From: an uncultured Gammaproteobacteria bacterium
GTDB lineage: Bacteria > Pseudomonadota > Gammaproteobacteria > Eutrophobiales > Eutrophobiaceae
Direction: 5' to 3'
Assembly: GCA_943788815.1 (NCBI GenBank)
Contig: CALSRS010000001.1
Span: 186,001-250,000, forward strand
Length of the DNA stretch: 64,000 nt
The translations under genes and the position numbers were made by a program. The notes beneath the pieces are model-generated. The model did no database searches and had not been told where the DNA came from. It saw only the letters and a list, made by a program, of their open reading frames with translations. Positions 9,375-12,318 of the stretch are shown piece by piece. Every line of letters starts with the position of its first letter. Within the stretch, counting starts at the first letter, position 1.

Positions 9375-10115
9375 TTGAAAGATTTTATCAGTGGTTTCTG
9401 TTATGCCTTCTCCGGCTTTAAACTAATCAATAAAAGGGGAATAAGGAAGTTTATATTGGGTCCCTTAGTTATCAACAGCATTCTGTTTACACTGATAATT
9501 TTCCTGGGATTTAATGAGTTTAAGGAATTAATCGACTGGATTGAATCTCAATGGCAGTGGTTATCATGGATTAGTTGGTTGTTGTGGCCAGTTTTTGTCA
9601 TTATTAATTTAATTGTGGTGTTCTTCTGCTTTTCTATCATTGCTAATCTCATTGCATCTCCATTTAATGGTTTATTGTCCGAAGCGACTGAAAATCACCT
9701 GAAACTGGAAAAAAATAACCAGCATCGTGCTGAAGTCTCAACAAAAATTACGATGGGCTTAATTCTAGGTGCCATATTCAATGAAATACGGAAATTATTA
9801 TATATTTCATGCCGTGCTATCCCATTGCTGATTCTATTTATTATTCCGGTATTTCAACTGGCTGCGCCGTTCATATGGCTGATATTTGCCGCATGGATAA
9901 TGGCAATTGAATATATGGAATATCCGCTGGGAAATCATGAAAAAGAGTTTCATGAAGTCAGGGAATGGGTAAAGGATAATAGAAACTTTTCTCTGGGTTT
10001 TGGCATGGGAGTTACCTTGTTTACTGCAGTCCCAATAGTCAATTTTCTTGCAATGCCAGTTGCCATCACCAGTGCAACCAAAATATATATGGAAAAAGCG
10101 CAGTCAGAAATTTAA
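9375..10115 (+). CDS. CysZ/EI24-family integral membrane protein
   Basis: Predicted inner-membrane protein of the CysZ/EI24 family; E. coli CysZ is a sulfate uptake protein, so sulfate import is possible but not shown. Start FISGFCYAFSGFKLINKRGIRKFILGPLVIN matches the family N-terminus (aligned with GW KLVSQPGIRRFVILPL of CysZ). Four strongly hydrophobic segments are visible (about residues 28-48, 60-90, 140-175, 205-235). The reading frame is open from a TTG at 9327 overlapping queF, but I prefer TTG 9375, which has AAGG 9 nt upstream and removes the overlap. No cys genes are nearby. Confidence 0.8.
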   Translation: MKDFISGFCYAFSGFKLINKRGIRKFILGPLVINSILFTLIIFLGFNEFKELIDWIESQWQWLSWISWLLWPVFVIINLIVVFFCFSIIANLIASPFNGLLSEATENHLKLEKNNQHRAEVSTKITMGLILGAIFNEIRKLLYISCRAIPLLILFIIPVFQLAAPFIWLIFAAWIMAIEYMEYPLGNHEKEFHEVREWVKDNRNFSLGFGMGVTLFTAVPIVNFLAMPVAITSATKIYMEKAQSEI

Positions 10116-10190
10116 ATATGTCAAGATTGCTTATACCTCATCTTCTTGGTATATATATCCGCCTACAAAAGTATGGCATGGGGTCAGGAT

Positions 10191-11201
10191 ATGGCGACAA
10201 ATAAAAAAGCCAAAAAGAAGGCTGCAAAAAAGAAAAAAATAGCAGCGAAAAAGACTATCGCCAAGAAAAAGGCTAAAAAGAAATCTACTAAAAAGAAGAT
10301 AGCTAGTAGATCTCGTCCAGCAAAAAAACAACCTGTTAAGAAAAAGGCTAAAAAGAAAGTAGTGAAAAAGAATATCGTCAAAAAGAAAGTAGCCAAAAAG
10401 AAGGTCGCCAAGAAAAAGGTCAACAAGAAAGTAGCCAAAAAGAAGGTCGCCAAGAAAAAGGTCAACAAGAAAGTAGCCAAAAAGAAGGTCGCTAAAAAAA
10501 AGGTCAATAAGAAAGTAGCCAAAAAGAAGGTCGCTAAAAAAAAGGTCAACAAGAAAGTAGCCAAAAAGAAGGTCGCTAAAAAAAAGGTCAACAAGAAAGT
10601 AGCCAAAAAGAAGGTCGCTAAAAAGAAAACACTGGAAAGCAAATCTTCGACACCAGAAGTTGTCAAAAGACGACCGGGGCGCCCTGGAAGACCACCAAAA
10701 GTAAAAGTGGTAGAGAAAAAGCCACTCGTCACTTCTAAAGGAAAAGAAAACCTTCTGTCTCTTAAAAGCAAGACTTTTAGACGTTCTACTCCTGAACTGC
10801 AAACATTCAAACCCTACCACCCTAGCCAAGGTGAGGAATTTATGAATGCAGATCAAACTGAGCATTTTCGTCACATACTTCTCGACTGGAAGAAGTTATT
10901 GATGGAAGAAGTAGACCGCACCGTTCATCATATGCAGGATGAAGCTGCAAATTTCCCAGATCCCAATGATCGTGCGACCCAGGAAGAAGAGTTTGCGCTT
11001 GAATTACGCACACGTGACAGAGAAAGAAAACTGATACGTAAAATAGACGAAGCAGTGCTACGACTTGAAACAGGTGATTTTGGATTTTGTGAAATATGTG
11101 GTGTTGATATTGGAATTAAACGACTGGAAGCCCGCCCTACGGCAACACTATGTATTGATTGCAAAACTCTGGATGAAATCAAAGAAAAACAACTAGGGTA
11201 G
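10191..11201 (+). CDS. dksA: DksA/TraR-family RNA polymerase-binding protein with a long histone H1-like lysine-rich N-terminal arm
   Basis: The last about 130 residues are a complete DksA: coiled-coil tip motif [12 protein letters not shown] (Asp-x-x-Asp of the secondary-channel binder), [11 protein letters not shown], and a four-cysteine zinc finger CEICG ... CIDCK. DksA binds RNA polymerase and works with ppGpp at stringent promoters. The first about 200 residues are not DksA: they are almost only Lys, Ala, Val and Asn (repeats of [14 protein letters not shown]), ending in an AT-hook-like [11 protein letters not shown]. Total length is 336 aa against 151 in E. coli. I chose ATG 10191 (GGGG 7 nt upstream) over upstream TTG/ATG codons. 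The basic arm resembles AlgP/histone H1 tails that bind DNA, so a DNA-tethered DksA is an inference. gluQ follows, the usual dksA partner. Confidence 0.9.
10383..10627 (+). repeat. 42-bp tandem repeat (5 full units plus a partial sixth) inside the dksA-like gene
   Basis: Units begin at 10383, 10425, 10467, 10509, 10551 and 10593 (partial). Each encodes 14 residues [14 protein letters not shown]. Units differ only at wobble positions (gcc/gct, aag/aaa, aac/aat), so the array is recent or homogenised and is likely to vary in copy number by slippage or unequal recombination in steps that keep the frame. Confidence 0.95.
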
Positions 11202-11433
11202 AATCTACGAGTTTTTTACTACATCAATCCAATCAAAATCAATTATTTATCATTAAGACCAAGCCTTAATCTTAATTAATGTGGATGCCTGCAAATATGC
11301 CACAACAAGAGCGAAACAGGCAAGCAGGAACGCGCTTCAACCTGGCAAGTTAATTCGCGACTGCGCATTTGAGTTCTTCAGACTAAGGCATAGGCTAAAT
11401 AGTCCAATTTTGATAACGATACTCAAAAGTTAA

Positions 11434-12318
11434 ATGACGGTCGAGGATCCATATGTTGGAAGGTTTGCGCCGACTCCCAGCGGCCCCTTACATTTTGGCT
11501 CTATCATAGCCGCACTCTCAAGTTTTCTTGAGTCTCGTAAACATAATGGCAAATGGTTATTACGATTTGATGATATAGATACGCCTCGTATTGATAAAAG
11601 TTCTTATGACAATATATTACGTGCGATGGAGTCCTTAAGTTTGGAATGGGATAATTCGTCAATATATCAACAAAACAATCTCCCCTGTTATCAGAAAGTT
11701 ATAGAGAGATTATCTGAACTAAACTTCCTTTATAAATGTGATTGCCCGAGAAAATTAACAAAAGGCAAGCCATATCCAGGTACATGTCGAGATAAAAATA
11801 CAGATCATAATAAAAATTATGCCTTAAGAGTCAAGGTAGATGATGTACCTGTTTCTTTTTTCGATTTGATACAAGGAGAAGTTGTTCAGAACATTGCTGC
11901 ACACTCTGGTGATTATATAGTTCAACGTTCGGACCGTCTTATTTCCTATAATCTGGCTTCCGCTATTGATGATACCGATGGAATTACCCATGTAATCAGA
12001 GGGGCTGATTTACTAGATACCACACCAAGACAAATATATTTGCAGAAATTGCTAGGGCTAGAATCACCTGTTTATGGTCATGTCCCTGTTGCTGTCAATG
12101 CCTATGGGCAAAAACTTAGCAAACAACATGGTGCCCAAGACGTACTACTGCACTATTCCCCATCAGAAGTTTTGGTTAAGACACTCCAGTTTCTCGGTCA
12201 AAATATTGAAAAGGATATGGTCTTAGCTGATACAAGAACAATTATAGACTGTGCCCTGGAGAATTGGTCACTATCAAGGGTTCCTAAAGTTGCATCCATA
12301 ACTGGCGAATATAAATAA
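11434..12318 (+). CDS. gluQ: Glutamyl-Q tRNA(Asp) synthetase
   Basis: Class I aminoacyl-tRNA synthetase paralogue (YadB) that attaches glutamate to queuosine 34 of tRNA(Asp). The HIGH-like motif is PTPSGPLHFGS (residues 13-23), the zinc ligands are CDC ... Y ... C near residues 101-120, and the KMSKS counterpart is KLSKQHG. There is no anticodon-binding domain, as expected at 294 residues. Its substrate depends on queuosine, so it is functionally linked to queF 2 kb upstream. It lies 232 bp after dksA; the gap holds no recognisable gene. Confidence 0.95.
   Translation: MTVEDPYVGRFAPTPSGPLHFGSIIAALSSFLESRKHNGKWLLRFDDIDTPRIDKSSYDNILRAMESLSLEWDNSSIYQQNNLPCYQKVIERLSELNFLYKCDCPRKLTKGKPYPGTCRDKNTDHNKNYALRVKVDDVPVSFFDLIQGEVVQNIAAHSGDYIVQRSDRLISYNLASAIDDTDGITHVIRGADLLDTTPRQIYLQKLLGLESPVYGHVPVAVNAYGQKLSKQHGAQDVLLHYSPSEVLVKTLQFLGQNIEKDMVLADTRTIIDCALENWSLSRVPKVASITGEYK

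Follow-up and report, generated by a model that had tools for sequence, protein, structure and literature searches.

The chief partner of ppGpp on RNA polymerase is DksA, a protein known largely from arm-less versions such as that of Escherichia coli. The dksA gene described here lies in a stretch of 64,000 nucleotides, referred to as the window, from an uncultured gammaproteobacterium. Its product begins with a long lysine-rich arm, which raises the question of whether this arm is a genuine part of DksA and, if so, what it does there. The features of the locus are collected in Table 1.

Table 1. Features of the armed dksA locus, in positions of the window; G002 is a sister species.
Feature	Position	Strand	Details
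dksA promoter	10127-10155	+	-35-like TTGCTT, 17-nt spacer, extended -10 TGG-TATATA; family conservation
dksA gene with N-terminal arm	10191-11201	+	336 aa; start ATG 10191
Lys/Ala/Val-rich arm, residues 1-156	10191-10658	+	composition; AlphaFold
Tandem array, 42-bp unit (14 codons)	10377-10624	+	TRF: 5.9 copies, 97% match
Conserved linker from arm to core, 61 codons including the hook	10659-10841	+	82% amino acid identity to G002
AT-hook-like segment, including PGRPGRPPK	10668-10706 (11-residue heart 10668-10700)	+	8 of 11 codons silently changed versus G002
DksA core	10842-11201	+	coiled coil, tip D257-x-x-D260, Cys 300/303/321/324, ppGpp site-2 residues

The C-terminal part of the protein appears to be the cell's ordinary, intact DksA. 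In a profile search, residues 218-326 matched the DksA model TIGR02420 with 167.6 bits (cut-off 115.5); the narrower model NF008045 (PRK10778) gave 206.2 bits, below its cut-off of 289. Pfam places DksA_N at residues 222-291 and the C4 zinc finger (PF01258, 44 bits) at residues 295-326, with all four cysteines present. The tip motif DxxDxA is retained, as D257, D260 and A262 align with residues 71, 74 and 76 of E. coli DksA. The ppGpp contacts reported for E. coli DksA are R91, L95, K98, R129 and K139 (PMC7676912). In the alignment to this protein the site-2 residues are present as R277, L281, K284, R315 and K325, and they are invariant across a selected alignment of 40 armed four-Cys DksAs. 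The core is modelled confidently by AlphaFold (block means of 77-95 from residue 211 on; overall pTM 0.45), and comparison of the core with 1tjl by Foldseek gave a TMt of 0.82 and 68% identity over the structural match. The preliminary description of this DNA had recognised a complete DksA, with the Asp-x-x-Asp tip and the four-Cys finger, and the profile match and the aligned residues agree with it. It had also counted about 200 extra N-terminal residues rich in Lys, Ala and Val; the alignment begins with residue 12 of E. coli DksA (1tjl) at residue 198 of the window protein, so the extension comes to approximately 186 residues.

The gene order is queF, cysZ, dksA, gluQRS, and this dksA is the only one in its genome above the TIGR02420 cut-off. 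A distant second ORF of the DksA/TraR zinc-finger type (L002:1354-1836, 47 bits) carries no Lys-rich arm. The genome also encodes a RelA/SpoT protein and the polyphosphate kinase Ppk1.

The arm is strongly basic. Its residues 1-150 comprise 79 Lys, 23 Ala, 21 Val and one acidic residue, and it holds 24 Lys in 40 residues. AlphaFold predicts a helix at residues 4-40 (pLDDT block means of 73-91 for residues 1-40) and has low confidence beyond it, with pLDDT near 50 for residues 41-160. As the modelled helix is confident at residues 11-30, the arm need not be disordered throughout. The 42-bp units, described earlier as nearly identical, were recovered as such: six units differ only synonymously, except for a change of N to K in unit one. 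The histone H1-like family HC2 (PF07382) scored 10.5 bits against a gathering cut-off of 40 (Pfam, E 0.64), and membership of the arm in this family was rejected, as the score is far below the cut-off. Two minus-strand ORFs over the arm (10131-10874 and 10184-10810) are taken to be mirror images of the repeat. A chance low-complexity ORF was likewise rejected, since stretches with at least 14 Lys per 40 residues occur in the dksA frame at 52 of 88 class loci, against 0 of 88 for each other frame.

Arm and core are encoded by one gene, and its promoter lies before the arm. A promoter pattern (TTG-N15-19-TGGTAT) was sought within 110 nt of the start, with the expectation taken from shuffled sequences. 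Of the armed family members, 22 of 24 carry it, 33-51 nt ahead of the start, where shuffles predict 0.10; the armed class loci give 15 of 49 (0.10 by shuffling) and the armed named loci 11 of 20 (0.05 by shuffling). Arm-less genes have it too, namely 0 of 2 in the family, 9 of 23 in the class and 8 of 47 among the named loci; loci with 10-13 Lys per 40 residues were scored as neither armed nor arm-less. A generic sigma-70 scan of positions 9900-11500 found no promoter, and the -35 element is weak. The transcript would probably start near position 10162. Because the conserved promoter is situated upstream of the arm, the arm should be transcribed as part of dksA, to the extent that a promoter can tell. 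Transcripts starting only at the DksA part, a possibility raised in the preliminary description, are the opposite of this in silico picture.

The ATG at 10191 is the more likely translation start than the in-frame ATG at 10173. Exactly MAAKKK opens 24 of the 88 related arms, many more begin with close variants, and an ATG start was assigned in 86 of the 88. Before residue 218, at positions 10830-10844, GGTGAGGAATTTATG resembles a ribosome-binding site, and a short DksA made by an internal start is possible. Of the 63 armed genes (among 88) with a GEE/GED motif, 40 use GAG as its first Glu codon, compared with 583 of 1408 Glu codons in the core (kinship ignored).

The fusion recurs in relatives. 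Several proteins of the family are identical to named Gammaproteobacteria records (L013 and L035 are examples), which points to Gammaproteobacteria as the class. The arm count covers 37 of the 53 family genomes searched, the window's own genome included, and 30 of the 37 have a Lys-rich arm fused to DksA. Two have an arm-less DksA (G029, G035), in two the gene is cut by a contig end (G009, G030), and in three there is no DksA above the cut-off (G008, G011, G016), so that 30 of 32 genomes with a readable gene are armed. In three armed family loci (L003, L016, L238) the contig ends inside the arm. The preliminary description had allowed for relatives in which the arm and the DksA part are separate genes; the family shows the reverse. 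An artificial fusion of two genes by assembly or annotation was rejected on the grounds that the fusion recurs and that the promoter precedes the arm. In five family genomes (L231, L232, L233, L238, L239, L243), the DksA finger is without two or three of its cysteines (CEETGEEIG type). Four of these five are armed, the fifth being cut at a contig end, and hence the arm accompanies both forms of DksA. A further locus, L032, is, very likely in error, labelled Klebsiella pneumoniae (MAG MH-09jul19-253); its dksA ORF is identical to that of the genus mate G001 (L024).

Outside the family, the best 80 of 450 relatives yielded 80 named loci with 79 distinct DksAs, of which 23 reach at least 14 Lys per 40 residues and another 9 lie at 10-13. 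Arm-less DksAs include those of the cultured Halochromatium, Thiohalocapsa, Methylomonas and Methylophaga. As G029, G035 and several cultured Gammaproteobacteria are arm-less, the arm is dispensable somewhere. Nor is there an arm on the DksAs of enterobacterial type that were read from the phylum sample (L253, L258, L262, L264, L273). Long Lys/Ala/Pro arms are also found on reduced-Cys DksAs of some class members (L277, L278, L281), and in the class member L248 approximately 300 residues of Lys/Ala repeats precede DksA, which exceeds the window arm. Seven of the matches listed for other classes of the phylum have an open frame of at least 200; six of these were read and none of the six has a Lys-rich arm, which suggests that the trait belongs to Gammaproteobacteria. 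When the window arm was used as a sequence query, 11 of 36 relatives gave matches with E<=0.001, some of them in other genes, and arm sequences diverge even within the genus. The architecture is not peculiar to the window, but a trait of gammaproteobacterial DksA, frequent but patchy, in which arms are alike by composition and not by sequence.

This composition was followed over 88 distinct arms. The class sample joins a first set of loci with those of the listed matches whose open frame is at least 180 aa, and gives no estimate of prevalence. Loci with a deviant tip or finger stand outside the 88-arm and promoter counts: six in the family (L231, L232, L233, L238, L239, L243) and 18 in the class (L117, L122, L124, L128, L174, L176, L199, L202, L209, L213, L216, L219, L221, L227, L237, L240, L244, L245). 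The six family loci and L176, L221 and L237 were read for arms by eye. A looser pattern recovered twelve further deviant class loci; L124, L174, L199, L219 and L227 among them are armed, and others are arm-less.

The 88 arms measure 57-305 aa (median 111) and contain 34% Lys (22-50%), 2.6% Arg and 1.8% Asp plus Glu. Their net charge is +17 to +107 (median +38.5), against -7 for the core. This composition is held over a wide range of base composition, as GC3 spans 0.23-1.0 and acidic residues are nearly absent throughout. As GC3 rises from its lowest to its highest class, the Lys fraction declines from 0.38 to 0.31 (rho -0.39 across the 88 arms), and Lys/(Lys+Arg) in the arms goes from 0.95 to 0.90, compared with 0.37 in the core. 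Ala tracks GC3 far more strongly, with a rho of 0.72, which means that base composition shifts the filler more than the lysines. AT-driven drift towards AAA and AAG codons was rejected as the whole cause, since the top GC3 class still averages a Lys fraction of 0.31. Of the 88 arms, 23 have a tandem array at the DNA level; the units differ, and every one of the 23 periods is divisible by 3. The earlier proposal that the repeat number can change in frame is in line with these periods, as a comparison between species.

Between arm and core lies the AT-hook-like segment that had been noticed beside the arm. It is here located to the heart given in Table 1, and its PGRPGRPPK contains GRP twice in a basic setting, with P in place of the R of RGRP, the canonical AT-hook core; no Pfam AT-hook model matched at E<=1. 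Among the 88 arms, GRP occurs only in the window's own genome (G000) and in the sister species G002, and the other three genus members are without the hook. Where the two species differ within the hook, every difference is silent. Over hook and linker together, 33 of 61 third positions are changed, versus 17 of 122 first and second positions, and the DksA core of the two species is 96% identical in amino acids. By these counts, linker and hook are under purifying selection. The linker closes with the PY...GEE(F/Y) segment that DksAs share.

The best explanation, to which we give a probability of roughly 0.55, is that this protein is a DksA with a basic, mostly disordered arm that would hold it near DNA non-specifically, the hook adding a preference for AT-rich sequence. 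The core would enter the secondary channel of RNA polymerase and form ppGpp site 2, as is established for E. coli. Emerging from the part of DksA that stays outside the channel, the arm would ride on nearby DNA, and could thereby enrich DksA locally, both in the nucleoid and around polymerase that is transcribing or bound at a promoter. The hook-like segment beside the core, present in this genome and one sister species, may confer a preference for AT-rich minor grooves. In-frame gain and loss of repeats would let the arm length drift. We infer DNA binding, AT preference and an effect on transcription from the features described above, and lysine-rich low-complexity regions are reported to be enriched among prokaryotic DNA-binding proteins (PMC6821194). 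Speaking against DNA holding is a transporter gene headed by the same 42-bp unit, where DNA binding makes little sense. The arm-less relatives, the likeness of arms by composition only, the modest fall of Lys with GC3, the PGRP form of the hook, the confident helix in the arm and the binding of polyphosphate by other Lys-rich stretches count against it as well.

This gene, read from its sequence and its neighbour as a type-I secretion ABC transporter, carries the unit at its 5' end (G000:C3:289840-289916, 91% identity over 77 bp). The copy stands in frame at the gene start (G000:C3:289816-289929; L141, L290). Compared with the dksA unit, 20 of 26 codons are identical, where synonymous recoding would leave 8.9 (P ~1e-5 for the best offset, uncorrected for the choice of offset). 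Of four related transporters found among 36 genomes, 33-45% identical, none has a start of this type. The 42-bp unit was probably copied between genes, so not every Lys-rich stretch in the genome need serve DNA. As the transporter is unrelated, part of the spread of the unit may be the behaviour of repeat DNA. Elsewhere in the genome, a stand-alone ORF of 88 aa (L142:1501-1767, minus strand), almost wholly Lys, Ala, Thr and Val, lies beside an adenylate-kinase-like gene, and similar Lys-rich matches occur in some relatives.

The main rival to DNA holding is a role in polyphosphate binding, which we consider unlikely. Here the arm would be a tail for polyphosphate (or RNA), and under starvation polyphosphate would coat the lysines and recruit or inactivate DksA, which would couple polyphosphate to the stringent response. 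Lys-rich stretches bind polyphosphate (PMC12077175) and reportedly RNA (PMC6821194). Two polyphosphate-binding proteins of Pseudomonas aeruginosa are described with nine Lys per 20 residues (PMC12077175), a density that the window arm exceeds, and AlgP is reported to associate with polyphosphate granules (PMC9239181). The presence of ppk1 and a RelA/SpoT protein in the genome would suit such a role, but E. coli has ppk1 too and an arm-less DksA. Furthermore, polyphosphate binding leaves the conserved AT-hook-like segment unexplained.

It is a little less probable again that the arm has no task of its own and is a nearly neutral expansion of repeats, kept soluble and tolerated at an N-terminus that permits it. 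The patchy presence of arms, their divergence within the genus, the recurrence of arrays with differing units, the copy in the transporter gene, and the dependence of Ala, and weakly of Lys, on GC3 would all fit such an expansion. Neutral drift accounts poorly for a Lys content of 22-50% with nearly no acids across the whole GC3 range, for the retained start and promoter, and for a linker and hook under purifying selection. The same holds for the prevalence in the family, where 30 of 32 readable genomes are armed, the reduced-Cys form included. That the functional DksA is a short product of proteolysis or of an internal start at ATG 10842, with the arm only in a long form or as a pro-region, is improbable: the site-like letters before residue 218, the favoured GAG and a processed DksA variant observed in Xanthomonas euvesicatoria (PMC5559785) agree with it, but the conserved peptide GEE(Y/F)M, which arm-less DksAs such as that of E. 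coli have too, itself dictates those letters, and such a product would lack the conserved PY..GEE segment that lies upstream.

DNA holding by the arm is kept as a plausible mechanism for an armed DksA that is itself real, partly under selection and frequent in the class. A wider proposal is tentative and, in our view, rather doubtful: many non-model Gammaproteobacteria would have a DNA-tethered DksA; in this genus the hook would aim the ppGpp/DksA response at AT-rich DNA in an HMGA-like manner, with the length set by the repeats tuning it, and the arm-less DksA of E. coli, from which current models are drawn, would be the special case. If many relatives are armed, the retention of DksA near polymerase, its competition with other channel factors and the chromosomal sites of its action may vary within the class. 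With the hook-bearing form, it can be tested directly whether a secondary-channel factor can be aimed at DNA.

Several known systems share parts of this architecture. E. coli DksA (1tjl, 5vsw, 7khi) has the whole core in common with the window protein, including the tip aspartates, the four cysteines and the ppGpp site-2 residues, and differs in its short N-terminus without arm or hook. HC2 and other bacterial histone H1-like proteins (PF07382) resemble the arm in their Lys/Ala/Val repeat composition, and we know of no RNA polymerase factor attached to them. AlgP (AlgR3) and PhaF of Pseudomonas also have a histone H1-like low-complexity Lys/Ala tail; in AlgP the repeat number varies, and peptides of the KPAA tail bind DNA (PMC9239181). 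Their tail consists of C-terminal KPAA repeats on another type of domain, whereas the window arm is N-terminal and of the KKKVA type, and the available part of the description mentions no polymerase-binding part (PMC9239181).

Among DksAs themselves, that of X. euvesicatoria likewise starts further upstream, 109 residues beyond the annotation. The long form is translated, as peptides and start-codon mutants give 256 and not 147 aa (PMC5559785). In the accessible part of that report, this is presented as a correction of the start site, with no role assigned. Some homologs of the TraR/DksA family are stated in general terms to be longer than DksA (PMC9239242). Searches of the open-access full-text literature found no description of Lys-rich arms on DksA, and the armed form is apparently undescribed so far.

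The nearest working parallel may be CarD of Myxococcus xanthus, which also combines an RNA polymerase-binding domain with a basic, disordered tail bearing AT-hooks (PMC8156234). CarD has features of its own, namely the unrelated CarD_CdnL_TRCF domain, a C-terminal position of the tail, four RGRP hooks and an acidic region. This domain is absent from the Pfam matches of the window DksA at E<=1, and the likeness concerns the working principle only. In CarD, the disordered HMGA tail binds AT-rich DNA and is reported to be replaceable by histone H1, and the protein without its tail keeps reduced activity (PMC8156234).
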